Source: Singulisphaera sp. GP187
GTDB taxonomy: Bacteria > Planctomycetota > Planctomycetia > Gemmatales > Gemmataceae
NCBI GenBank assembly: GCA_945905925.1
Contig: CAMDQN010000054.1
Location: forward strand, 1-41,684
Reading direction: 5' to 3'
Length of the DNA stretch: 41,684 bases
How positions within the stretch are numbered: the stretch's first letter is position 1; each line of letters begins with the position of its first letter. The notes under the pieces were generated by a model, which was not told where the DNA came from, ran no database searches, and was given only the letters and a program-made list of their open reading frames with translations. Below, piece by piece: positions 20,829 to 37,828 of this stretch. The translations under genes and the position numbers were made by a program.

Positions 20829-21443
20829 ATGTCGCGCATCATCTTGTTTGTGCTGGTTTTGCTGTTGTGTCTCAGTCACACCTCACTGGCTGCGGAATAC
20901 CATCCATGTCAGGGGCGGGTAGTTCCCCCCCGGAATCCGCGAGCGGGCGACAGTGTGAACAACGACTTCGGTGGCGTCGTCACAGCGGTGGCGAAGGACT
21001 CGATCACGATCCGGTGGGTCAACTTGCCGAACGAACCGCCGAAGACGTTCGCGGTGTCCGAGGCGCTGGCCGCGGGTAAGGTGCCCGTCGAACCGCGTAT
21101 GCTCCCCGGTGCGCAGCATGCGTACCTTGTGCTTCCCGAGGAGATGTACCGATTAGTCGACGTGAAGGTCGGCGATTGCATCGCGATCTTGTACGCCCGC
21201 GTCGATGGCGTCGATATCTGCGACCACATCCGCATTCGTCGTCGTCCCGGCAGTGAGGTGCCGCCGCTACCGAAAGCGGCCGAAGACCTGCGGGACGGGC
21301 GCGAGATATGGAAGGCCAAGAACCCCGGCAAGCCACTCCCGGAACACTTCGCGAAGGTGCGATACCAGCCGTACCACGAGTGGATCAACGCGTACTGGGC
21401 AAAGGTCGCCCCCATGCCGCGCGAGGTGAAGGCCAAGCCGTGA
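20829..21443 (+). CDS. small secreted protein, first of a tandem pair
   Basis: The 204-residue product has a signal peptide (MSRIILFVLVLLLCLSHTSLA). The mature region contains HPCQG, DFGGVVTAVAKDSITIRWVN, a MYRLVDVKVGDCIAILYARV beta segment, DHIRIRRRPG, VPPLPKAAEDLR, YHEWINAYW and an ending PMPREVKAKP. All of these have counterparts in the next gene, so the two arose by duplication. GGGGAG precedes the ATG. The central part could be a small beta-barrel. No known family or catalytic motif was recognised. Confidence 0.75.
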   Translation: MSRIILFVLVLLLCLSHTSLAAEYHPCQGRVVPPRNPRAGDSVNNDFGGVVTAVAKDSITIRWVNLPNEPPKTFAVSEALAAGKVPVEPRMLPGAQHAYLVLPEEMYRLVDVKVGDCIAILYARVDGVDICDHIRIRRRPGSEVPPLPKAAEDLRDGREIWKAKNPGKPLPEHFAKVRYQPYHEWINAYWAKVAPMPREVKAKP

Positions 21444-21502
21444 AGACGCCGAGAAATGCCCAACTCCTCAGCGCCCCGCAGGTCGCAAGCGAAGGAACGT
21501 TG

Positions 21503-22135
21503 ATGTCCCGCATCATCCGGTTCGTGGCACTGGTTTCACTTCTGTCGCCCGGTGTGCCCCTGCTGATGGCCGTGGACTGCCGTCCGTGCCAAGGAGTGAA
21601 AGTTCCACCGGAGCCGAGGAACGACGCAGGCGGTGTGCCGTACTGCGGCAAGGTGACGGACGTGACCCGCACGTCCATTACGGTGCAATACGCCGACGAG
21701 AAGCCGAAATGCTTCGCGGCCTCCGACGCGCTCGCTGCCGGGAAGTGCCCGAAAGAGCCGCGGCCAATCCCCGGGCGCCAGCAACCGTACTTCGTCCAAC
21801 CGTCGATGATGTATCGGTTGACCGACGTTGTGGTTGGCGATTGGGTCGATATCTGTTATTCATCGGTGGACGGGGTGATTACCTGTGACCACATCTGCAT
21901 CAAGAAGCGGCCAGGCGGGCTTGTTCCACCTCTGCCGGAGGAGGCTGAAGCGTTACGAATGCGGCGCCCGCTGGCACCCGGGGTTCCGTTGAAGAACCCG
22001 CACATAGCCTACCATGAATGGACGAACGCGTACTGGGATCTCGAAGACCGTGACATCGCGTACCCCGAGAAGTTCGGCCGCGACCGACGTTTCCCGGTCG
22101 CGCCACTGCCGCGAGAAGTGAAACCACAGCCGTGA
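21503..22135 (+). CDS. small secreted protein, second of a tandem pair
   Basis: The 210-residue product starts MSRIIRFVALVSLLSPGVPLL, a signal peptide close to its upstream neighbour's. It repeats the same blocks: RPCQGVKVPP, TSITVQYADE, MYRLTDVVVGDWVDICYSS, TCDHICIKKRPGG, VPPLPEEAEALR, YHEWTNAYW and PLPREVKPQP. It has more cysteines than its paralogue (CRPC, YCGK, KCF, GKCP, ICY, TCDHIC), which suggests disulfides or metal binding after export. The frame is open from 21308, but the ATG at 21503 with AAGGA upstream gives the signal peptide. It follows its paralogue by 59 bases. Confidence 0.75.
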   Translation: MSRIIRFVALVSLLSPGVPLLMAVDCRPCQGVKVPPEPRNDAGGVPYCGKVTDVTRTSITVQYADEKPKCFAASDALAAGKCPKEPRPIPGRQQPYFVQPSMMYRLTDVVVGDWVDICYSSVDGVITCDHICIKKRPGGLVPPLPEEAEALRMRRPLAPGVPLKNPHIAYHEWTNAYWDLEDRDIAYPEKFGRDRRFPVAPLPREVKPQP

Positions 22136-26731: not shown

Positions 26732-28108
26732 TCAATTCCGCACCGGTTCATCGACCATCACGAGGACTGGCACGGGCACGGGCTTCCGCACGCGGACCGC
26801 ACCGGCCGCGAACCAGACCGCGCTAACCAACGTGAGCACCAGCAGCGCCGAGAACGTGCTTCCCGGAATTGCGGTCCACGCGAGCGGCAGCAGCACGCCG
26901 CCGAGCGCGCCGAGCAAGCCCACCAGCCCACCGACCGCGCCGACCTCTCTCGGGAAGTGGTCCGGGATCATCTTGTACACGCTCGCCTTGCCGACGCCCA
27001 TTCCCACACCCAACACGAACAACGCGCCGGTAAACCACCACACGCCGAGGTTCCACGGCAGCGACAGCACCGCGCCCGAAGCGAGCATCCCCCAGAACAC
27101 CGCGACCATCACGCCGCGCGCCCCGAACCGGTCCGACAACCACCCGCCGACCGGCCGCAACAGGCTCGCGGGGAACACGAAGCACACCGCCGCGAGGAAT
27201 CCCACCCACTTCGAGAGGTAGTTCAGGTCGTCCTTCACCGCCGGGTTCGCGGTCATGTACGCGGTGTATGCTTCGCCCTTCAGCGCCTTGATCGCGTCGA
27301 AGTCCGCGACGAGCGTTTCGTTCAGGCTCAGGCTCGCCGCGAGTGCCTTCCCATAGTTCGCGAAGTAGAACTGCGGCAGCACGCCGGAGAGCGCGACATA
27401 CGACCCGAACACAACCGTGTACTGGAGGCTGTATTCCCAGACGCGCGAGTGCTTCATTGGCGCGACGAGTTCGGACATCGCCCGCCCGCGAGCCGGCGTG
27501 CGGTCTTCCCGCGGTGAGAGAAACCACACCGCTGCCGCCAGCACTACGAGCAGCGCGGCGTACACGACCGGGATGAGCCGCCAGCCGCCGGGAATCGCTC
27601 CGTCCAAGAACCCCGCGGCCGGCACGATGGCGATCAGCAACGGGCCGAGCAACTTCGTCACCGACGCGCCGACGTTACCCGCACCGAAGACGCCCAGCGC
27701 GATGCCCTGCCGTTCCTTCGGGAACCACGCCGCGTTCCACGCGATTCCCACCGAGAACGAGTTCCCCGCTACACCGTACAGAATCGCGCAGATGAGCAAT
27801 TCGTTGAAGCTCGTCACGCGACTCACGAAGAACGTTGGCAGCACGGTAAACAGGATGAGCACGGTCAGCACGCGGCGTCCGCCGTAGCGGTCGGTCCAGA
27901 TGCCGAAGTGAAATCGCATGAGCGAGCCGGACAGGATCGCGGCAATCGTGAGGTTGTAGAACTGCCCGTCGGTGAGGCCGAGTTCCGGCTTGATCTTGAT
28001 GCTCAACATGCCGAGCATCAGCCACACGGCGAACAGCAGCGTGAACGCAACGGTGGATAGCGTGAGCACGCGCGCGCGTTGCCCGGCCGCCAGTCGGTCT
28101 GGGGTCAT
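26732..28108 (-). CDS. narK: nitrate/nitrite transporter, MFS NarK/NasA type
   Basis: The 458-residue protein is a 12-helix major facilitator of the nitrate/nitrite porter group. The family signature is seen in AWFPKERQGIALGVFGAGNVGAS (split near residues 128-150), which combines the charged loop with a Gly-rich nitrate-signature helix. A second Gly-rich helix near 385-410 has VGAVGGLVGLLGALGG. The loop between helices 6 and 7 is longer than usual, with a hydrophilic insert (ADFDAIKALKGEAYTAYM). It imports nitrate across the inner membrane for the reductases encoded upstream. The ATG at 28108 has AGG a few bases upstream. Direction of transport (import or exchange) is inferred from context. 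Confidence 0.9.
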   Translation of the reverse strand: MTPDRLAAGQRARVLTLSTVAFTLLFAVWLMLGMLSIKIKPELGLTDGQFYNLTIAAILSGSLMRFHFGIWTDRYGGRRVLTVLILFTVLPTFFVSRVTSFNELLICAILYGVAGNSFSVGIAWNAAWFPKERQGIALGVFGAGNVGASVTKLLGPLLIAIVPAAGFLDGAIPGGWRLIPVVYAALLVVLAAAVWFLSPREDRTPARGRAMSELVAPMKHSRVWEYSLQYTVVFGSYVALSGVLPQFYFANYGKALAASLSLNETLVADFDAIKALKGEAYTAYMTANPAVKDDLNYLSKWVGFLAAVCFVFPASLLRPVGGWLSDRFGARGVMVAVFWGMLASGAVLSLPWNLGVWWFTGALFVLGVGMGVGKASVYKMIPDHFPREVGAVGGLVGLLGALGGVLLPLAWTAIPGSTFSALLVLTLVSAVWFAAGAVRVRKPVPVPVLVMVDEPVRN

Positions 28109-28137: not shown

Positions 28138-28197
28138 GTTAGCCGCAAGCCGAAGGTGAGCGTCCACGTAGGCGCTCGCCTCCGGCTTGCGGCTAAC
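28138..28197. repeat. GTTAGCCGCAAGCCG palindromic repeat
   Basis: The arms 28138-28162 and 28173-28197 are near-perfect reverse complements (GTTAGCCGCAAGCCGAAGG and so on) around a 10-base loop. The TAG stop of the FAD/BFD gene (28195-28193) lies inside the right arm. It separates that gene from narK and may set relative transcript levels. Confidence 0.85.
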
Positions 28198-29611
28198 GGG
28201 CGCTCGCCATACTTGTGTGAGTCGCCAGCATCGCACTGAGTTGCCCGCGACACGACCCGCAACCGGTTCCAGCGCGTGTCACATCACAGAGCGTGGGGAG
28301 AGTATCACAGCCGCCGCGGATAGCCTCGACGACGGCGGATTCGGTTACGTGGTTGCAGTTGCACACTTCACGCTCGGCCGGTGTCGTCGCCGTGTTCCCG
28401 GTTGCGAGCACGTCGAGGCGGTTCGGTGGAAGGAGTTCGTCGCGATCGAACATCTGCACCAGCGCCGGCGCTGCTTCGGCGCACCCAACAAGCATTGCGC
28501 CAGCGAGTTTGCCGTCGCGAACGACGAGCTTGCGGTAGACCCCGCGGCGTTCCTCGAACACCTGCACGACCTCGTCGGTGGGGAACTCCGCGTCGGTGAC
28601 GCCGAAGCTAGCGACCTCGACCCCGGCGACCTTCAACCGCGCGTACACCTTTGAGCCAAGGTAGCGGGCACGCGGGTTCGCGCCGGTGAGTACATCGGCC
28701 AGCACCGCGCACTGTTCCCATATCGGTTGAACAAGGCCGTACACCTTGCTGTCGTGTTCGGCACACTCGCCGACCGCGTACACGCCGGGCACCGGCGTCG
28801 CGAGCAGATCGTTCACCAGGATCGCGCGCTTGACCGGCACGCCAGAGGCAATCGCCGTTTCGAGACGAGGAACGATCCCGCACGCGAACACGACCAGATC
28901 AGCCGGAACGACATCGCCGTTCCGCATCTTCACCGCTTCGACGTGGCCGTTGCCGATGATCTCTTCGGCCGTCGTGCCGGTGCGGACGAAGATGCCCATT
29001 TTCTCGATCGCGCGCCGGAGTAATTCGCCGCCCGACTTATCGAGTTGTGCGTTCATCAGCACCGGGTCGAGGTGCAGAACAGTAACGTGAAGGCCAAGGT
29101 CGCAGAGCGCCTTCGCAGCTTCGAGGCCGAGCAACCCGCCACCGACAACAACCGCGCTGCTCCCGGGTCGGGCGCGGTCGCGAATCGCCACGCAGTCGTC
29201 GATGGTGCGAAACACATGAACGCCGTCGCGCGGCGAGCCATCGTCGGACTTCAGCCCACGGACCGGCGGCACCAGCGGCGAGCTTCCCGTCGCGAAGACA
29301 CACACGTCGTATGGGTGAAGGCCACCTTCGCTGGTGGTGAGGCGACGGGCAACCGGATCGACCTTCGCGACGCGCACGCCAGAGTGGAATGTCACGCCGC
29401 GTGCCGCGTACCACGACGTTGGCTTCAGCGAGATCTCGTCCGGGTTGCTTCCGCTGAGGACGCGGCCGAGGAGGATGCGGTTGTACGAGCCACGCGACTC
29501 CTCACCGAAGACGGTGATCTCGAACGAATCGGTCGCGTTGCGGCGCACGAGTTCGTCGAGCAGCCGCGAAGCCGCCATTCCGTTGCCAATGATTGCGAGG
29601 CGCTTCTTCAT
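28193..29611 (-). CDS. nasB: FAD-dependent electron-transfer protein with BFD [2Fe-2S] domain (NasB-like)
   Basis: The 472-residue protein matches the N-terminal half of NirB. It has an FAD Rossmann motif IIGNGMAASRLL near residue 8, a second dinucleotide motif VVVGGGLLGLEAAKALCDLG near 150, and the FAD-closing VYAVGECAEH. A C-terminal BFD-like [2Fe-2S] domain follows, with C417, C419, C451 and C454 (CNC ... GCGSC). It lacks siroheme and sulfite-reductase-type domains, so it should pass electrons rather than reduce nitrite. In Klebsiella-type systems NasB delivers NADH electrons to nitrate reductase. It follows the nitrate reductase gene by 60 bases. The ATG at 29611 was chosen to match the family start. 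Confidence 0.85.
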   Translation of the reverse strand: MKKRLAIIGNGMAASRLLDELVRRNATDSFEITVFGEESRGSYNRILLGRVLSGSNPDEISLKPTSWYAARGVTFHSGVRVAKVDPVARRLTTSEGGLHPYDVCVFATGSSPLVPPVRGLKSDDGSPRDGVHVFRTIDDCVAIRDRARPGSSAVVVGGGLLGLEAAKALCDLGLHVTVLHLDPVLMNAQLDKSGGELLRRAIEKMGIFVRTGTTAEEIIGNGHVEAVKMRNGDVVPADLVVFACGIVPRLETAIASGVPVKRAILVNDLLATPVPGVYAVGECAEHDSKVYGLVQPIWEQCAVLADVLTGANPRARYLGSKVYARLKVAGVEVASFGVTDAEFPTDEVVQVFEERRGVYRKLVVRDGKLAGAMLVGCAEAAPALVQMFDRDELLPPNRLDVLATGNTATTPAEREVCNCNHVTESAVVEAIRGGCDTLPTLCDVTRAGTGCGSCRGQLSAMLATHTSMASAR

Positions 29612-29625
29612 ACTTGGCCCCCAAC

Positions 29626-29673
29626 GAGCCGCTTGCGGTTTCACGAGCACACTCGCGAAACCGCAAGCGGCTC
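29626..29673. repeat. GAGCCGCTTGCGG palindromic repeat
   Basis: The arms 29626-29642 (GAGCCGCTTGCGGTTTC) and 29657-29673 are perfect 17-base reverse complements with a 14-base loop. The TGA stop of the nitrate reductase gene (29674-29672) overlaps the right arm. The element lies between that gene and the electron-transfer gene. Confidence 0.88.
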
Positions 29674-31789
29674 AACCAACTTTGGCAATCCGCACGGCCG
29701 CGAGCTTGAACTCCGGCATCCGGCTCGTTGGATCCAGCGCACCACTCGTGAGCAGGTTCGCGGCGGCGCGCCCGCCCCAGTGGAACGGCGCGAACAGCGT
29801 ATCCGGGCGAATATCAGCGGTCACTTCGGCCACAAACTCGACCTTCGCTCGCCGACTCTCTACCGTGACATGGCTCCCGGTGACAACGCGGTGTCGCCGG
29901 GCAAGTCTGGGGTGAATCTCCAAACGCGGTACCGGCTGCGCGCTCGATAGTTTCCCGACGATTCGCGTTTGCGCGCCGGAGTTGTAATGTTCCTTGTAGC
30001 GCCCCGTCGTGAAGAACAGCGGAAACGCAGCGTTCGGTTCCTCGCCTGCCTCTCGATGTTCCACCGCGAAGAACTTCGCACGCCCGTCGGCGTGATGGAA
30101 CCGATCCGCGAACATCCGTGGCGTGCCGGGATCGTCTTCGGATTTGCACGGCCAGAACACGCCATCTTGCTGTTCGATCTTCGCGTAGGTGATGCCGCTG
30201 TAGTCCGCCGGTGCGCCCGCAGTGGCGAGACGCAGTTCGTTGAAGACGCTCTCCGTGGTGCGGAACACAAACTTCTCGCCACAGCCGAGGCGCGACGCGA
30301 GTTGGTGCAGTACGTCGAGGTCACTACGCGGACCGGTCGGCGGGCGCGACACGACTCGCCGCCGAATCACGCGACCCTCCAAGTTCGTCATCGTGCCGTC
30401 TTCCTCGGCCCACTGGAGTACCGGAAGGAAGACGTGGGCGTGGGCACTCGTGTCGTTGTGGAACGCGTCGGACACAACGAGCAGTTCCAGCGCCTTCAAC
30501 TTCGGAAGAAGGTGCGACAGGTGCGGGGCCGCGACCGCGACGTTCGCCCCTACCACGAACAAGCTCTTCACGCTCTCGCCGAGCGAATCGAGCAGTTCGT
30601 AGGCGCTCTTTCCCTTACGCGGGAGCGATGCGGGTTCGACGCCCCACACCTTCGCGATGGCTTCGCGGTGTGCATCTACCTCGATGAGTCGATATCCCGG
30701 AAGCTGATCGGCCTTCTGGCCATGTTCGCGCCCGCCCTGGCCATTCGCCTGCCCCGTGAGCGTGCCGAAACCGCTCTGCGGTTTCCCCACTTTCCCGAGC
30801 GCGAGCATCAGGTTGATCCACGCGTGAACGCTGTCCACGCCCTTGCTGTGCTGCTCCGTGCCGCGCCCGGTGAGAACCATTGCACTGCGAGCGGTCGCGA
30901 GCCAACGGGCCGCTTGCCGCAGTTGCGATTCGGCGATTCCCGTGAGCCGCTCGACGCGGGCCGGGTGGTACTGAAGCGCTACGGCACGGACCGCATCGAA
31001 TCCATTCGTGCGATCCGCGACGTAGCGTTCGTCGGTCAGCCGCTCTTCGATCACGACGTAGAGCAGGCCGTTAGCGAGCGCGAGATCGGTGCCCGGCGTG
31101 AGTTGCAGAAAGAGGTTCGCGAGGCGCCCGGTCGGTGTGCGACGCGGGTCCGCGACGATGAGGCGGCCACCGTTCGCCTGCTGCCGGTCGAACCACTGCA
31201 TCATCGGCGGGAGCGTGTCGGCCGTGTTTGCGCCGACGAGCATCACGACTTCCGCGTGTTCCACGTCCGCGACCGGAAACGGCAACCCGCGATCCAGTCC
31301 GAACGCGCGGTTCTGCGCGGCCGCGGCGCTCGACATGCAGAACCGGCCGTTGTAGTCGATGTTCGCGGTGCCGAGCGCGAGCCGTGCGAACTTCCCAAGC
31401 AGATAAGCCTTCTCGTTCGTCAGCGCGCCGGAACCGAACACACCGTTGGCGTCGGCCCCGTGCTTCTCGCGGATCGCAAGCATCTTCACGGCGACGAAAT
31501 CGAGCGCCTCCTCCCATTCGGCGCTTCGCCATTCGCCGCGTGCGTCGCGGAGTTGCGGCGTGTTGACCCGCTGCGGATGGTCGAGCAGCGCGGCCGAGGT
31601 CCAGCCCTTGATGCACAACTGGCCGTTGTTCACCGCCCAGTGCGGGTCGCCGCTCACCCGCGGCAGGTCGCCGCCGAGGTCTTCGCCCATCAGCATGCCG
31701 CACTGGAACGCGCAATACGGGCAGTGCGTGCGAACGCCGAGCGCCTGGGGGGCGAGCATCGTCAGCGGGATTGGCGGAATGGCACTCAC
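29672..31789 (-). CDS. nasA: assimilatory nitrate reductase catalytic subunit (molybdopterin)
   Basis: The 705-residue enzyme reduces nitrate to nitrite in the cytoplasm. It has an N-terminal [4Fe-4S] site (C23, C26, C30, C59 within HCPYCAFQC and LCIKGW). The Mo-bis-MGD domains follow (VFGSGALTNEKAYLLGKFARLALGT region, GANTADTLPPMM, LTGRGTEQHSKG). A C-terminal dinucleotide-binding domain has FFTTGRYKEHYNSGAQT and FAPFHWGG. The length fits assimilatory NasA/NasC enzymes. It lacks the extra BFD domain found in some longer forms, and a separate BFD protein is encoded next. The GTG start at 31789 overlaps the stop of the Rieske gene (GTGA), which indicates translational coupling. Confidence 0.93.
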   Translation of the reverse strand: MSAIPPIPLTMLAPQALGVRTHCPYCAFQCGMLMGEDLGGDLPRVSGDPHWAVNNGQLCIKGWTSAALLDHPQRVNTPQLRDARGEWRSAEWEEALDFVAVKMLAIREKHGADANGVFGSGALTNEKAYLLGKFARLALGTANIDYNGRFCMSSAAAAQNRAFGLDRGLPFPVADVEHAEVVMLVGANTADTLPPMMQWFDRQQANGGRLIVADPRRTPTGRLANLFLQLTPGTDLALANGLLYVVIEERLTDERYVADRTNGFDAVRAVALQYHPARVERLTGIAESQLRQAARWLATARSAMVLTGRGTEQHSKGVDSVHAWINLMLALGKVGKPQSGFGTLTGQANGQGGREHGQKADQLPGYRLIEVDAHREAIAKVWGVEPASLPRKGKSAYELLDSLGESVKSLFVVGANVAVAAPHLSHLLPKLKALELLVVSDAFHNDTSAHAHVFLPVLQWAEEDGTMTNLEGRVIRRRVVSRPPTGPRSDLDVLHQLASRLGCGEKFVFRTTESVFNELRLATAGAPADYSGITYAKIEQQDGVFWPCKSEDDPGTPRMFADRFHHADGRAKFFAVEHREAGEEPNAAFPLFFTTGRYKEHYNSGAQTRIVGKLSSAQPVPRLEIHPRLARRHRVVTGSHVTVESRRAKVEFVAEVTADIRPDTLFAPFHWGGRAAANLLTSGALDPTSRMPEFKLAAVRIAKVG

Positions 31790-32118
31790 GCGACCGGCAC
31801 CGTGACGAATACTTCGCCGTTCAGCACTTCGGCCGGGTACGCTTCGATGCCGCAAACGCTCTCTTGATCGCACGCCCCGGTCTTGCCGTCGAACCGGAAG
31901 GCGTGCAGCGGACACACGACCTGCTCACCGATGAGCATTCCGTCCGCAAGCGGGCCAGATTTGTGCGGGCACTTCCCATCGACGGCGAACACTTGACCTT
32001 CGCGCCCGCGGAACACCGCGAGCGAGCGCCCGCCAACTTCAAAGGCGCGGCCGAGACCGTGCGGCAGTTCGTCGAGCGTGCAGAGGGGGATGGTTGTGGT
32101 CGGCGCGGTCTGGTTCAT
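31786..32118 (-). CDS. nirD: nitrite reductase small subunit, Rieske type
   Basis: The 110-residue protein has the Rieske [2Fe-2S] motif C50-x-H52 and C69-x2-H72, seen as KCPHKSGPLADG and VVCPLHAF. NirD is the small partner of NADH-dependent siroheme nitrite reductase NirB and is usually about this length. The ATG at 32118 was selected because upstream in-frame codons belong to a palindromic repeat region between nirB and nirD. The stop overlaps the nitrate reductase start (GTGA). Position after nirB and before nasA is typical for assimilatory nitrate operons. Confidence 0.9.
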   Translation of the reverse strand: MNQTAPTTTIPLCTLDELPHGLGRAFEVGGRSLAVFRGREGQVFAVDGKCPHKSGPLADGMLIGEQVVCPLHAFRFDGKTGACDQESVCGIEAYPAEVLNGEVFVTVPVA

Positions 32119-32131
32119 GTCGAGTGCCTCG

Positions 32132-32173: not shown

Positions 32174-34609
32174 TCAAACCACAGGTAAGGGAATGCGCTT
32201 CGTCTCGTCGAACTGGCCGGCGTACACCGGCGAGTCACGCTCCAGCCACGGGTCGACGTAAGCTGCCATCGTCTTCGCTACTTCCAGATCGAGTTGCGTT
32301 CCGATGCCGAGCGAGTCGTTCACGATGATGTCGCGCACGTTCTCGATGCCGAGCCGCGGGACGAAGTCGTAGGTGCGTTCGAGCCACTTCGCGTTGTCGC
32401 GGTAGTAGATGAGGAACCGGCCAATCACGCGAAGCGCTTCCTCCTTCGTCGTCACGCGGCACAGCACGTCCGTCTTGCGAACGTGCGCGCCGGCCGCGCC
32501 GCCGACTGACACTTCCCATTCACCACCTTCGGTGGCAATCACGCCGACATCCTTGACGGTGGATTCAGCACAGTTCCGCGGGCACCCACTCACCGCGAGC
32601 TTCACCTTCGCGGGGAACTCGAAGCCCTGGAACCGCTTCTCCAGGTCGATCCCCAAGCCGGTGCTGTCGTTGGTCCCGTAGCGGCAGAACTCGGTGCCGA
32701 CGCACGTCTTCACGGTGCGCAGCGCCTTCGTGTACGCGTGACCGCTCGGCATGCCGAGATCGGCCCACACGCCGGGCAAGTCTTCCTTCTTGATGCCGAG
32801 CAGGTCGATGCGCTGCCCGCCGGTGAACTTCACCATCGGCACCGCGTACTTCTTCGCGACGTGCCCGATCTTGATGAGGTCGTCGGCCGTCGTGATGCCG
32901 CCGTAGATGCGCGGGATGACCGAGAACGTGCCGTCTTTCTGGATGTTCGCGTGAACGCGGTCGTTGACGAACCGCGAGTCGCGCTCGTCGATGTACTCGC
33001 TACCCCAGATGCTCTTGAGCATCGAGGCCAGCCCGTTGCGGCTCTTCTCATCGTCCGCGGTTCCGAGTTCGCGAAGCACCGCGGACACGCTCTTGAGGCC
33101 GCGGGCCTTCACTTCCGCGACGAGCGTCGGCTTGTCGAGCGGAACCGCCGCGACGTACCACGATTCGCTCGGCTCGGCCTTCACGCCGCCCGCGACCGCT
33201 TCAATAAGTCCTTTGACGAGCTTCTTGCACGAACCACAGCCGGTGCCGGCGCGAGTCGCCTTCCCGACCGCGGGAACCGTGCACTTCCCGTTCTTGATCG
33301 CGTTGACGATCGTTCCCTTGCACACGCCGTTGCAGTCGCAGATCTGGTGTGAATCGGGCAGGTCCGCGAGCGAGACTTCTTTCTTGGCCGACCCTGCGGT
33401 AAAGAAGAGTTCTAACCTCCGTTCCGGCGCCACCGTGCCCGCGTGGAACATCCGCATGAGGTCGTCGGCCGGCGCGAGGTCACCCAGCAAACAGGCCGCG
33501 TTCACCCGGCCATCGCGGATGATCGCCTTCCAGTACACGTTGCGGGCCGGTTCGCTGAACGAAACCACCTCGTCAGTCGGTTGCAGGTCGTTGATGCGGC
33601 CCATGCTGGCGAGTTCGACGCCCATCACCTTGAGCTTCGTCGCGATCTTCGAACCGCCGTAAGTCGCGGTCGCGTCCGCACCGGTGAGCACCTTCGCGAG
33701 CACCTTCGTCTGCTCCCAAAGCGGGGCGACGAGGCCGTAGATCATACCGTTGTGCTGAACGCACTCGCCGACACCGAACACGGCCGGGTCGCTCGTGCGA
33801 AGCTGGTCGTCCACGACAATCGCCTTGTCGCAGACGATGCCACATTCTTTCGCGAGTTCCGAGTTCGGCCGGATGCCCGCGGAGATCACCACCATGTCCG
33901 CGGGAATCTCGGTGCCGTCGCCGAACTTCACGCCGGTCACGCTCACATGACCGAGCAGCTCCTTCGTGCCGGTCGCGACGCGCGCTTTGATGCCGAGGTT
34001 TGCGATGGTCTGGCCGAGTACCTTTCCGCCGGCTTCATCGAGTTGCACGCTCATCAGCCACGGGGCCATCTCGACGACTGTCACCTCGACGTTGTGCGTC
34101 ATCAAGCCCTTAGCGGCTTCCAACCCAAGCAACCCGCCACCGATCACGACCGCGGTCTTGCACTGTTTCGCGTAGTCCGCGATGTTGCGGCAGTCGTCGA
34201 GTGTGCGGAACGCGAACACACCATGCAGCGGCGTCCCCGGAATCGGCGGGATGAACGGCTTGCTGCCAGTCGCGAACACGAGGTAGTCGTAATCCACCGC
34301 GAAGTCGTCCGCGAACACACGCTTGCCGTCGCGGTCGATCTGAGTGACGCGCTTCCCGGCGTGGAGCGTGATGCCGTTTTCCTCGTACCACGCGAGTGGG
34401 TTGAGGAAGATTTCCTTCGCGTCCTGCGTGCCGTTGAGCACGTTCGACAGCAGGATGCGGTTGTAGTTGCCGTAGGGTTCGTCGCCGAACACGGTGATGT
34501 CGAAGAGGTCCGGGTCGCACGCGAGCACGTCTTCGAGGAAGCGCGCCCCGGCCATCCCGTTCCCGATCACGACCAACTTCGGCTTCTGCGGGTGAAGCGC
34601 GCGAATCAT
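32174..34609 (-). CDS. nirB: NAD(P)H nitrite reductase large subunit
   Basis: The 811-residue siroheme enzyme reduces nitrite to ammonium in six electrons. An N-terminal FAD domain (GNGMAG at residues 17-22) is followed by an NAD(P) motif (VVIGGGLLGLEAAKGL near 154), a BFD [2Fe-2S] domain (C424, C426, C458, C461), a ferredoxin-like half-domain and the siroheme-[4Fe-4S] domain (C636, C642, C676, C680; CVGTEFC and GCPRNC). The length is within the usual 800-850 residues. AGGAG lies eight bases before the ATG, which overlaps the upstream methyltransferase stop as ATGA. The BFD and FAD half is closely mirrored by the separate 28193-29611 gene. Confidence 0.96.
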   Translation of the reverse strand: MIRALHPQKPKLVVIGNGMAGARFLEDVLACDPDLFDITVFGDEPYGNYNRILLSNVLNGTQDAKEIFLNPLAWYEENGITLHAGKRVTQIDRDGKRVFADDFAVDYDYLVFATGSKPFIPPIPGTPLHGVFAFRTLDDCRNIADYAKQCKTAVVIGGGLLGLEAAKGLMTHNVEVTVVEMAPWLMSVQLDEAGGKVLGQTIANLGIKARVATGTKELLGHVSVTGVKFGDGTEIPADMVVISAGIRPNSELAKECGIVCDKAIVVDDQLRTSDPAVFGVGECVQHNGMIYGLVAPLWEQTKVLAKVLTGADATATYGGSKIATKLKVMGVELASMGRINDLQPTDEVVSFSEPARNVYWKAIIRDGRVNAACLLGDLAPADDLMRMFHAGTVAPERRLELFFTAGSAKKEVSLADLPDSHQICDCNGVCKGTIVNAIKNGKCTVPAVGKATRAGTGCGSCKKLVKGLIEAVAGGVKAEPSESWYVAAVPLDKPTLVAEVKARGLKSVSAVLRELGTADDEKSRNGLASMLKSIWGSEYIDERDSRFVNDRVHANIQKDGTFSVIPRIYGGITTADDLIKIGHVAKKYAVPMVKFTGGQRIDLLGIKKEDLPGVWADLGMPSGHAYTKALRTVKTCVGTEFCRYGTNDSTGLGIDLEKRFQGFEFPAKVKLAVSGCPRNCAESTVKDVGVIATEGGEWEVSVGGAAGAHVRKTDVLCRVTTKEEALRVIGRFLIYYRDNAKWLERTYDFVPRLGIENVRDIIVNDSLGIGTQLDLEVAKTMAAYVDPWLERDSPVYAGQFDETKRIPLPVV

Positions 34610-35484
34610 GTAGAAGCTCCTGAAGAACCCACCCCCCGGCCCCCTCCCTGCAGGGAGGGGGAGGAAGACGACGTTTCGATGAGCCGCGAGCGCGAGCGAG
34701 CGATTGCTTTGCTCCCCCTCCCTGCAGGGAGGGGGCCGGGGGGTGGGTTTCTTCGCGCGACCACTTCACCAACCACCAACACCGCCGGCCCGCGGACCTC
34801 CGCCGCCTCCGCGATGCCGCCAATGTCACTCAGATCACCCACAAATACACGCTGCGCGGAAAGCGTTCCCGACTCGATCACTGCCGCCGGCGTGTCGAGT
34901 GACAGCCCGCTGTCACTCAACTTCGCGGCGATCTTCGCGACGTGCCGCACCGCCATGTAGAACACCAATCCCGGCATCCGCGCCAGTGCTTCCCAGTCGA
35001 GCGTGCAGTCGGGCGAATCGGGGTCGTGATGACCCGTCACGAGCGCGACCGCCTGGCCCGCGTCGCGGTGCGTGAGCGGGATACCGGCCGCGGCGCACAC
35101 GCCCGCGGCGCTGGTCACACCGGGGACGATCTCGAACGGCACGCCGGCTTCCGCGAGTACTTCAGCCTCTTCGCCACCGCGACCGAACACGCACGGGTCG
35201 CCGCACTTGAGCCGACACACCGACTTGCCCTCGCGAGCGAACCGCACGAGCGCGTCGTTGATCGTTTCTTGTTTGGTGGAACCGACACAGTACCCGCGCT
35301 TACCCACGGACACGAGTTCCGCGCCGTGCCGGGCTTCGGCGAGTAGGTCGGGAGAAAGGAGTGCATCGTGGAGAACGACATCCGCCGATTGCAGGATGCG
35401 GAGACCGCGAACGGTGATGAGGTCCGGCGCTCCCGGGCCAGCCCCCACTAAATACACGACTCCCGCTGACGCAAACCGGCCCAA
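34606..35484 (-). CDS. cobA: uroporphyrinogen-III C-methyltransferase (SUMT)
   Basis: The enzyme of about 292 residues methylates uroporphyrinogen III with S-adenosylmethionine to precorrin-2, the precursor of siroheme needed by NirB. The glycine-rich motif YLVGAGPGAPDL lies near residue 11. VSVGKRG, RLKCGDPCVFGRGGEE and VPGVTSAAG follow in the usual order. I chose the TTG at 35484, with GGAGGA upstream, over a TTG at 35580 because the family starts there and the promoter would leave no room for the earlier one. The final 47 residues (from NPPPGPLPAGRG) are repeat-encoded and not part of the family. The stop overlaps nirB's ATG (ATGA). Confidence 0.88.
   Translation of the reverse strand: MGRFASAGVVYLVGAGPGAPDLITVRGLRILQSADVVLHDALLSPDLLAEARHGAELVSVGKRGYCVGSTKQETINDALVRFAREGKSVCRLKCGDPCVFGRGGEEAEVLAEAGVPFEIVPGVTSAAGVCAAAGIPLTHRDAGQAVALVTGHHDPDSPDCTLDWEALARMPGLVFYMAVRHVAKIAAKLSDSGLSLDTPAAVIESGTLSAQRVFVGDLSDIGGIAEAAEVRGPAVLVVGEVVARRNPPPGPLPAGRGSKAIARSRSRLIETSSSSPSLQGGGRGVGSSGAST
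34622..34753. repeat. palindromic element encoding the CobA C-terminal tail
   Basis: The left arm 34622-34662 (including CCCCCTCCCTGCAGGGAGGG) and right arm 34711-34753 are about 40-base reverse complements with one indel, around a 48-base spacer. The whole element lies within the 3' end of cobA, in frame. It contributes the Pro/Gly/Ser-rich tail and leaves the coupled nirB start intact. CCTGCAGG-centred elements of this type recur in many genomes. Confidence 0.85.
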
Positions 35485-35591
35485 GGCATCCTCCGGGCAT
35501 GACGGTCCCAACAACGGGCCTGGGAAGAGTTCCGGCCCGCCGCGGGAAGTGTGATCCGAGAAATCAGTTTCGGAAGTCAAGTTTCAAGGAT

Positions 35592-35607
35592 TGCATTTGG
35601 TGTGCCA
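35592..35607 (-). promoter_or_regulatory. sigma-54 (RpoN) -24/-12 promoter
   Basis: On the minus strand the sequence TGGCACACCAAATGCA matches the sigma-54 consensus TGGCAC-N5-TTGCW at all but one fixed position (A for the first T of the -12 box), with correct GG-to-GC spacing. Transcription would start near 35581, giving a leader of about 97 bases before the TTG start of cobA at 35484. Sigma-54 control is usual for nitrogen-assimilation operons, which supports the match. An enhancer-binding site is expected further upstream; no clear NtrC-type site was identified. Confidence 0.6.
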
Positions 35608-35642
35608 GACCTGTGACTCACCCCGCTCCCCGGAGACAAATA

Positions 35643-35656
35643 CGTGGTAAACCACG
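35643..35656. promoter_or_regulatory. 14-base inverted repeat, possible operator
   Basis: CGTGGT-AA-ACCACG is a perfect six-base inverted repeat with a two-base centre, upstream of the sigma-54 promoter. It could bind a nitrogen regulator, but it does not match the NtrC consensus well. The assignment rests on position only. Confidence 0.3.
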
Positions 35657-35887
35657 GTAAATCCTCGCGGAATTGTCTTGTGAATCACCTCGTTGACGAG
35701 TGTGCAACACGGCCAAGCACGCATATGGTTCGCGCATCCCCTCGCGACGAGTGCCCACCAACAGCGCACGCGAGCAGATGTTGTGTGATGCGCCGACCAC
35801 GTAGACTTGAACGAAGCCACGCCTCAGGAAGAAGGCCGATGCCAAGTCGGTCTCGGAATCGGGAAAACTGCTGGCTCGCTAAACTGC

Positions 35888-35944: not shown

Positions 35945-37564
35945 TCACCACCGGTAACTCATCTGGAGGTAGAACAGACCCGCATCCTTCGCGGTTAGGC
36001 GGCCCGCGGTGTTCTTCAAGAAGTCGCCGCCGAACAGGTGCGAGTACCCGGTGAGCACATCGGCGTGCTTCGACACGTGGAAGTTCAGCGTCAGGTCGAT
36101 CTCCTCGCCGACGTGCGATCCGGCTCGCCCGGTTGCGTCGCGACGAATCGCGTTGCCGGCCGCGTTGTACAGCGCGTCGTGCCGGTCCGCGAGCCAGAAA
36201 CTGTGGAACTGCGTCCACACCGTCAGCCACTTCGTCGGATACAGGTACAGGTGGAAGTTCAGGTCGTGGATGTTCTGCCGACCGACCTGATCGATCCACC
36301 CGAGGTAGTAGTGACCGAACGGGAACAACTGGTTGAACGTGTTCGCGCCGTTGCGCCCGCCGCTCGCGTAGTCGTAGTACGCCCACACGCTCGGGTTCCA
36401 CGCCGCGTCCTTGAAGTTGTAACCCAACCCCTGCGTCGTCATCGCGGCGAACACGTCGCGCCCGTTCTGCTCGCCGAACTGGAACGCGGTTTCCGAGTCG
36501 AACAGCACGTTCCCTTCGGTCCCCGCGTACCGCCCGCCGACGGTGTGCCGCGTGAAGTTGCCGCGCGGGATGCCCTGTTGCGTGACGCGATTCGTGTTGT
36601 CGAGCAACAGGTAATACGCGTCGATCGTGTGACCCTTCTTCGGTCGGTGCGTGGCCCACGCGCCGAAGAAGTTCTGGTTGTTGTCCACCGAGTCGATCCG
36701 GTTCGGGTTGATCGCCACCGGCTGAACCCAGAACAAATCGAAGTCCCACTTCTCCGTTTGGCGGAACCCGCGCACGCCCTGGAACGTGCGCCGGGTATTC
36801 GCCCAGTCGAGCGTCGAAATGAGCCGCTGCGAACCTAACAATAGTTCCTGGCGCCCGGCGCGAACGTAAGCCGGTGAACCGCCGAGGTCCGCGACCTTCA
36901 CGTCCACAAACGCATTCAGCAGGTCCGACTTGTTCTCGTCGATCGGGAGTCGCGGCAGATCCTGGAACTGCGACCACGCCCCGATGCCCTCGACGAACAC
37001 GCGGAAGTCGTCGCGATACCACAGGTCGCCATAGACGCGGGCACGGGTCAGGTTGTAGTGGTTGTCGCGCTGTCCGAGACGCGCGTTGTACTTGTTCTCG
37101 TACCGCGAGCGGACGTCACCGCCGGTGGTGAACAGCCAGTTCTCGCCCAGGCGGATGCGCTTGAGCGGGTCGAACAAGTCGTGTTCGGTGTTCTTCGGGT
37201 CGTCGAGGTACGCGAAGTTATCGACATCGAAGAACGACGGCTGAATCAGCCCAAACCGCGGGTACGGGTATTTGGGCGGCCCCTTGAGGCACTCGCCGCG
37301 AAGTTGGTCGAGCGCGGAGTAGTAACCCGCTCCCGTCGGCAGCACGGGGAAGTTCCCTGGTCGCGGGAACGGGCGCGCACGCGGCGTCTTCTTCCGGTCG
37401 AACTCGGCTTCACACGAGGCGCACGGCACCGCCGGTGGCGGAGCGAGCGAGACTGGTGCCGCTGGCGCATCTGGCGCAACCGGCAACGCCGCCGGCTGCG
37501 CGGCGAGCGGTGCGACGAGGGACAACAGCACGACCGCCGCGCCGCGGAACTTGAAACCGAACAT
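35945..37564 (-). CDS. alginate-export family outer-membrane porin
   Basis: The 539-residue product has a signal peptide (MFGFKFRGAAVVLLSLVAPLAA) and a Pro/Ala-rich linker to about residue 50. A long beta-barrel region follows, with Tyr/Trp-rich alternating strands such as WLFTTGGDVRSRYENKYN, LTRARVYGDLWYRDDFRVFVE, YVRAGRQELLLGSQRLIS and the terminal YLQMSYRW ending in Trp. The RAGRQ motif and strand order match alginate-export (AlgE-like) barrels. In planctomycetes this family is widely used as a general porin, so alginate need not be the substrate. It lies directly upstream of the nitrate operon on the same strand and might admit nitrate. The start was set at 37564 by the signal peptide. 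Confidence 0.85.
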   Translation of the reverse strand: MFGFKFRGAAVVLLSLVAPLAAQPAALPVAPDAPAAPVSLAPPPAVPCASCEAEFDRKKTPRARPFPRPGNFPVLPTGAGYYSALDQLRGECLKGPPKYPYPRFGLIQPSFFDVDNFAYLDDPKNTEHDLFDPLKRIRLGENWLFTTGGDVRSRYENKYNARLGQRDNHYNLTRARVYGDLWYRDDFRVFVEGIGAWSQFQDLPRLPIDENKSDLLNAFVDVKVADLGGSPAYVRAGRQELLLGSQRLISTLDWANTRRTFQGVRGFRQTEKWDFDLFWVQPVAINPNRIDSVDNNQNFFGAWATHRPKKGHTIDAYYLLLDNTNRVTQQGIPRGNFTRHTVGGRYAGTEGNVLFDSETAFQFGEQNGRDVFAAMTTQGLGYNFKDAAWNPSVWAYYDYASGGRNGANTFNQLFPFGHYYLGWIDQVGRQNIHDLNFHLYLYPTKWLTVWTQFHSFWLADRHDALYNAAGNAIRRDATGRAGSHVGEEIDLTLNFHVSKHADVLTGYSHLFGGDFLKNTAGRLTAKDAGLFYLQMSYRW

Positions 37565-37828
37565 CCTTGTTTCTCGCAGTCCAGAGAGGCTGTGTCGTCC
37601 CGGTTCGTCCTGAACCGGGTGCGATGAGGAAAGGTATCGGAGTGGTAACACCGACGTGGAGAGCGGGACCGGTCGCGCGCGGTGCGCGATTCTCCCGACG
37701 CGCCGTGCGACCGCTCCCATCAGCGCGTCGCATAGTCCTCTCCATGCGCCCATCGCAATGGAAGTTCCTTGACCAACGGCGCTACCACGGGGACACTGAC
37801 AACCGCAGCACACCCGGAGCCGCTCCTC

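Follow-up and report, generated by a model that had tools for sequence, protein, structure and literature searches.

The nitrate assimilation operon and its promoter element

The window, which is the whole 41,684-nucleotide stretch of Singulisphaera sp. GP187 DNA analyzed here, carries a nitrate assimilation operon on its minus strand. The operon opens with a uroporphyrinogen-III C-methyltransferase-like gene (TP_methylase; SUMT, siroheme synthesis; 34606–35484) and continues with the gene for a nirB-type nitrite reductase large subunit (32174–34609), a gene for a nirD-like Rieske protein (31786–32121), a molybdopterin oxidoreductase gene that is a nitrate reductase by context (29672–31762), a gene for an FAD/BFD protein resembling the N-terminal part of NirB (28193–29611) and an MFS transporter gene, NarK-like by context (26732–28108); the starts of the nirD-like, molybdopterin oxidoreductase and FAD/BFD protein genes are approximate. 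Upstream of the promoter, and also on the minus strand, lies an Alginate_exp-family porin ORF with an uncertain start (35945–37813). At the Limnoglobus roseus locus (L084, 4242–5090), a gene judged by eye to encode an NrtD-type ABC transporter ATPase stands between the SUMT gene and nirB, and at another related locus (L093, 8936–12353) the nitrate reductase gene is found in two parts with about 1.3 kb between them, perhaps as the result of an insertion.

Sigma-54 promoters contain TGGCAC-N5-TTGCW, in which exactly ten bases separate the GG from the GC; they depend on rpoN and start transcription about 12 bases past the GC. The element TGGCACACCAAATGCA, an exact match at positions 35592–35607 of the minus strand, has the GG-N10-GC arrangement and shows two mismatches to the consensus TGGCACG-N4-TTGCW, both at weak positions. 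An earlier note on this DNA had claimed that the invariant -24 and -12 bases are present with the correct spacing, and this is what we find; transcription is predicted to start at 35581. For the first gene, the TTG at 35484 is the best-supported start codon; it stands behind a GGAGG ribosome-binding site (35494–35490, minus strand). In 12 of the 13 genus promoters, GGAGG followed by GTG, TTG or ATG is found at the equivalent place, the exception being L075. The predicted transcription start and this TTG together define a 97-nt leader, in agreement with the earlier proposal that some 100 bases separate the motif from the likely start of the first gene. The same note had discounted the TTG at 35580 as a start codon, rightly in our view, since that codon falls one base after the predicted transcription start and the leader alignment of the genus promoters contains gaps that are not of length three.

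The leader was also considered as the site of a hairpin, which by eye seemed to be conserved. Single sequences from 35485–35581 and the genus relatives gave strong folds, but the weak fold of the alignment (-0.64 kcal/mol, 7 pairs) does not support the hairpin, and we propose no leader structure. A search of the leader against Rfam for a described leader RNA family (NasT/ANTAR type) found nothing credible, its one match being to an lncRNA, below threshold and on the opposite strand.

Conservation of the sigma-54 site across Gemmataceae

The motif alone proves little. With one mismatch allowed, the window contains 2 matches where 2.44 are expected, and the exact pattern TGGCACN6TGCW is found 25 times in the genome, below the 79 occurrences of the reversed-pattern control, counts that would suit a motif arising by chance where the genome is rich in GC. 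Judged by comparison among relatives, the significance of TGGCACACCAAATGCA comes from its position and conservation. We searched 95 Gemmataceae genomes with NirB and took 25 orthologous loci, 26 including the window. The anchor for scoring was the N-terminal SUMT motif or, in two loci, the nirB start; 24 of the 26 loci could be anchored, and L085 and L092, in which the anchor is absent, were left out of the sigma-54 scoring. For each locus we scored a 280-base stretch whose end lies 20 bases short of the anchor, using weights based on the sigma-54 consensus, and p values were taken against Markov shuffles. The promoter analysis leaves out a 41%-identical NirB set (L096–L102) and two orthologues whose contigs stop short of the promoter (G089, G090), and includes G013 and G025, which were added from other contigs or matches.

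A coding-strand sigma-54 site with p ≤ 0.05 was found in 20 of the 24 scored loci, and Fisher's method over the ten genus medians gave 5.5e-13 for the coding strand and 0.63 for the reverse strand. The comparison across Gemmataceae suggested in the earlier note thus finds the promoter conserved. The site is marginal in L088, L089 and L095 (p 0.05–0.06) and was not found before the operon in L086 (p 0.44). In G035 and G068, where a SUMT gene was not detected, the best site is found 126 bp and 110 bp, respectively, upstream of nirB itself. A reverse-strand site also has p ≤ 0.05 in four loci, all from the window's genus (L074, L075, L078, L080). Position and conservation over ten genera, along with a constant spacing from two further conserved elements, make a chance match extremely improbable despite the unremarkable counts.

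Tandem NtrC-type boxes and a probable link to nitrogen status

The promoter alignment revealed two NtrC-type boxes, absent from the earlier note, further upstream on the minus strand: box A, TGCGCTGTTGGTGGGCA (35752–35768; TGC-N11-GCA, centre -179), and, 32 bp from it, box B, TGCGCGAACCATATGCG (35720–35736; TGC-N11-GCG, centre -147). Across 13 aligned genus promoters, all 13 columns that are invariant between -190 and -100 fall within these two boxes, and the 32-bp spacing is found in 12 of the 13 promoters, with 22 bp in L077. The length of the internal gap is similarly restricted. The genus nas promoters contain 35 TGC/GCR matches with N11 and at most 9 with any alternative gap length between 5 and 17, and 15 promoters outside the aligned set contain 11 matches to TGC-N11-GCA, compared with at most 2 for other gaps and a shuffle mean of 0.59 (maximum 4 in 1000 shuffles). 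Nine of these 15 promoters possess the box; in the region searched it was not found in the other six. In its 17-bp span and in its ends the box agrees with published NtrC sites: the consensus is given as TGCACCAnnnTGGTGCA, 17 bp (PMC8743547), and the site at Paracoccus amtB and nasTS as (T/C)GC(C/A)N4TTN2T(G/A)GCA (PMC5424462). Boxes A and B, as read from their sequences, have NtrC-box geometry.

Genome-wide, the tandem-box pattern shows no excess (11 versus 18 in controls), and since the same is true of the -24/-12 motif, such counts were dropped as evidence. Elsewhere in the same genome, tandem TGC-N11-GCA boxes 32 bp apart adjoin a formyltransferase-like gene (Ftr, by eye; L277, G000:C69, 1501–1663), with TGGCACGGTCCTCGCT about 100 bp on. 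This box pair was not counted, a sigma-54-like site being present with no plausible gene start behind it.

The ammonium transporter gene amtB is preceded by the same combination. In this genome CGGCACCGAGGGTGCT lies at -112 from the amtB ATG and TGCGCGCAAATCGCGCA at -132 from the predicted start, and a PII-like ORF, identified by eye, follows the gene. AmtB was matched in 80 of the 95 family genomes; the best 30 loci were taken and 28 were scored, L300 and L304 being left out because the start is too near the contig end. Among these 28 loci, from the best 30 of the 80 genomes' matches, 20 have a sigma-54-like site with p ≤ 0.05 before amtB; p is above 0.05 in the other eight and above 0.7 in three of them. 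The site occurs together with an upstream TGC-N11-GCA box in 17 of the 28 scored loci (16 of the 27 relatives). Counted anywhere in the 330 bases before amtB, the box is found in 22 of the 28 loci, with a total of 35 boxes compared with 3.9 on average in shuffles, and the gap control gave 35 matches with N11 and at most 9 with any other gap. L281 has no amtB box; its similar sequence has CGC in place of TGC at one end and lies elsewhere. Because NtrC-type boxes are common to the nas operon and amtB, the nas operon can be tied to nitrogen status. The earlier note had drawn this tie from sigma-54 control; it is supported by the boxes, which are also found at amtB, and not by the promoter itself.

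The genome contains rpoN (PF04552, E 8.4e-58), as the note's reading of the promoter had implied. At the rpoN locus L001, a sigma-54-like sequence, TGGCACGCGGCTTGCC, lies before rpoN and another, TGGCTCAGGCTTTGCA, just past it (reverse strand, 230 and 2064). There are 14 matches to sigma-54 activator domains, seven of them with E below 1e-50. The expectation of an NtrC-type activator is accordingly upheld as far as strong sigma-54 activators go and not at the level of the NtrC equivalog, TIGR01818, whose cut-off of 558.6 bits is missed by all seven. The best of them, at 443.4 bits, is encoded on contig C14 and has a receiver (21115–21480) and an AAA+ domain (21535–22038); the remaining six score lower on this profile. 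By these scores the C14 protein is the best NtrC candidate in the genome, NtrC-like and not a certified NtrC.

The absence of an activator above the equivalog cut-off leaves room for a reading in which the TGC-N11-GCA boxes are used by an activator other than an NtrC relative and the signal is not nitrogen status, a reading also favored by the two glutamine-synthetase genes, which have neither a sigma-54-like site nor a box within 330 bases upstream. We judge it unlikely, given the pairing of box and sigma-54-like site at amtB with its excess of boxes, the PII-like ORF after amtB and the likeness of the box, in both length and terminal bases, to the published NtrC consensus (PMC8743547, PMC5424462). 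We instead favor control by an NtrC-type activator, with the C14 protein as the best candidate for the acting one. When nitrogen is short, this activator would bind the tandem boxes at -179/-147, loop over and open the sigma-54 promoter, from which transcription of the nitrate assimilation operon would begin near 35581; the same NtrC/sigma-54 control would operate at amtB. TGGCACACCAAATGCA is very probably a real switch for the nitrate-use genes when nitrogen is scarce.

The arrangement resembles known promoters. In E. coli glnAp2, two NtrC boxes 32 bp apart stand upstream of a -24/-12 promoter; the box spacing is the same here, whereas the distance of the boxes from the promoter is greater by about 40 bp and the gene is a different one. 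In Paracoccus denitrificans, where ammonium repression is described as dependent on Ntr (PMC5424462), the 17-bp TGC-N11-GCA box likewise precedes nitrate assimilation and amtB genes (PMC5424462). Unlike Paracoccus, the host here belongs to the Planctomycetota, the boxes before the structural operon are in tandem, 32 bp apart at -179/-147, and relatives of the window's organism have a linked FixL/FixJ-like system. Among the titles and abstract openings of the best literature matches, we found no paper on sigma-54/NtrC control of nitrate assimilation in Planctomycetota. The present findings would extend NtrC-type control (nas operon, amtB) to a phylum distant from the Proteobacteria, in which such regulons were worked out, and they provide predictions at the level of single bases.

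Dyads and a proposed FixL/FixJ-like second input in relatives

A palindrome, CGTGGTTTWCCACG, precedes the -24 element with its center at about -68, and a weaker copy follows about 31 bp further on. In the window these are dyad 1, CGTGGTTTACCACG (35643–35656, minus strand; centre -68.5), upstream of the -24 element by 35 bp, and a degenerate dyad 2, CGGGGTGAGTCACA (35612–35625, minus strand), 31 bp after dyad 1 and near the -24 element; better-matching forms of dyad 2 are found in L078, L080, G025 and G013. Of 29 dyad loci in the genus, 11 have a sigma-54-like site (score ≥23) 33–36 bp past the dyad, and each of these is a nas/SUMT promoter; the remaining 18 have no sigma-54-like site above 19.9. 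Both dyad copies in L083 and L093, and the first copy in L089, lie about one helical turn further away.

The dyads are found in the company of a two-component system, a second regulator likewise absent from the earlier note. NasS/NasT had been considered as the conserved neighbors of the operon and were rejected, the genes being a FixL/FixJ-like pair that encodes a kinase of 348 aa and a regulator composed of a receiver and a LuxR-type HTH. At 193.1 bits the regulator does not reach the cut-off of the FixJ profile NF006900 (255 bits); with the expected domains present in its sequence, it is classed as FixJ-like, not FixJ. The pair stands beside the promoter in 14 of 30 promoter loci, and nine of the 12 genus members having the operon possess the system, usually adjoining it. 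Pair and dyad co-occur: the dyad is present in 16/16 promoters whose genome has the pair and in 2/13 without it (p 2e-6, uncorrected for kinship; n=29, L085 left out), where presence of the pair means a full-length kinase match above 250 bits, the regulator having been searched in four genomes only. In G023 and G047, a SUMT gene follows the promoter without nirB behind it. Three further genomes among the 19 that bear the kinase (G021, G033 and G089) enter with sequence around the kinase and no nas promoter, and this sequence contains no dyad close to the kinase. We regard the dyads as candidate binding sites of the FixJ-like response regulator.

Such sites also raise the possibility that the operon depends mainly on a housekeeping-type promoter, which the FixJ-like regulator would activate from the dyads, with GG-N10-GC as a coincidence or an overlapping secondary promoter. 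FixJ-family regulators act on sigma-70 promoters, the -12 element in dyad-bearing promoters often runs on as TGCAAT or TGCATT, which is slightly -10-like, and a short, phased distance from dyad to element is kept. This alternative is nevertheless quite improbable, as GG-N10-GC is kept in genera with neither the dyad nor the two-component system, the regulator was not found in the window genome and a conserved -35/-10 pair was not seen in the genus alignment by eye.

In the window genome, we found no kinase match at E ≤ 1e-25 and no regulator orthologue, only one receiver-only match. The gene order in G025 is VWA, porin, regulator, kinase, SUMT, nirB, and that in the window is VWA, porin, SUMT, nirB. 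G013 retains a 45-residue kinase fragment before the promoter (69% identical, E 5.9e-13); none like it was found in the window. On the simplest reading of these sequences, the window's lineage has apparently lost the FixL/FixJ-like pair and kept the dyad, although the assembly is 96.6% complete and a copy of the two-component system in a gap is therefore possible. The retention of dyad 1 despite the absence of its presumed regulator counts against our main model. With the FixL/FixJ-like system apparently lost, the operon here should answer to nitrogen status alone.

Sequence elements, conservation, spacing and co-occurrence together make it highly likely that this is a sigma-54 nas promoter served by an NtrC-type activator, with a FixJ-like second input in relatives that has apparently been lost here; from them we infer protein binding, looping, the signal and the acting activator. 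In the relatives, the second input would come from a FixJ-like regulator bound to the dyads (about -69 and about -38), either as a co-activator or as a brake, and their site patterns suggest that two signals once fed the switch, one of them seemingly lost here. We more tentatively entertain a specific form of this arrangement for Gemmataceae, in which a LuxR-type FixJ-like regulator without an AAA+ domain, on tandem dyads in helical phase with the -24 element, would gate an NtrC-activated sigma-54 promoter, the window representing the state after its loss. If this is true, nitrogen status and a membrane-sensed signal would be combined at one promoter. The FixJ-like layer also raises the question by what means a sigma-54 promoter can respond to a regulator that has no AAA+ domain.

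Promoters of nas genes under sigma-54 and NtrC are of a kind already known, and the one described here, with its FixJ-like layer, would be a new form of them. A parallel to that layer is the fixR-nifA promoter of Bradyrhizobium, a -24/-12 promoter with RegR binding near -68; RegR is a response regulator but does not belong to the sigma-54 activators. The position is shared with the dyad, which is here a candidate site only; unlike the FixJ-like regulator, RegR is not of the FixJ/LuxR type, and the genes are nif rather than nas genes. The fixR-nifA operon is described as being under RegSR control (PMC6066989).

In five of the ten genus loci (L071, L074, L075, L078 and L080), the best reverse-strand sigma-54-like site overlaps the -12 element and shares its TGCA (p 0.002–0.051). 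This suggests a two-way promoter in those five loci, though not in the window: the reverse-strand sites point away from the operon and, where the kinase gene is adjacent, face this divergent gene.
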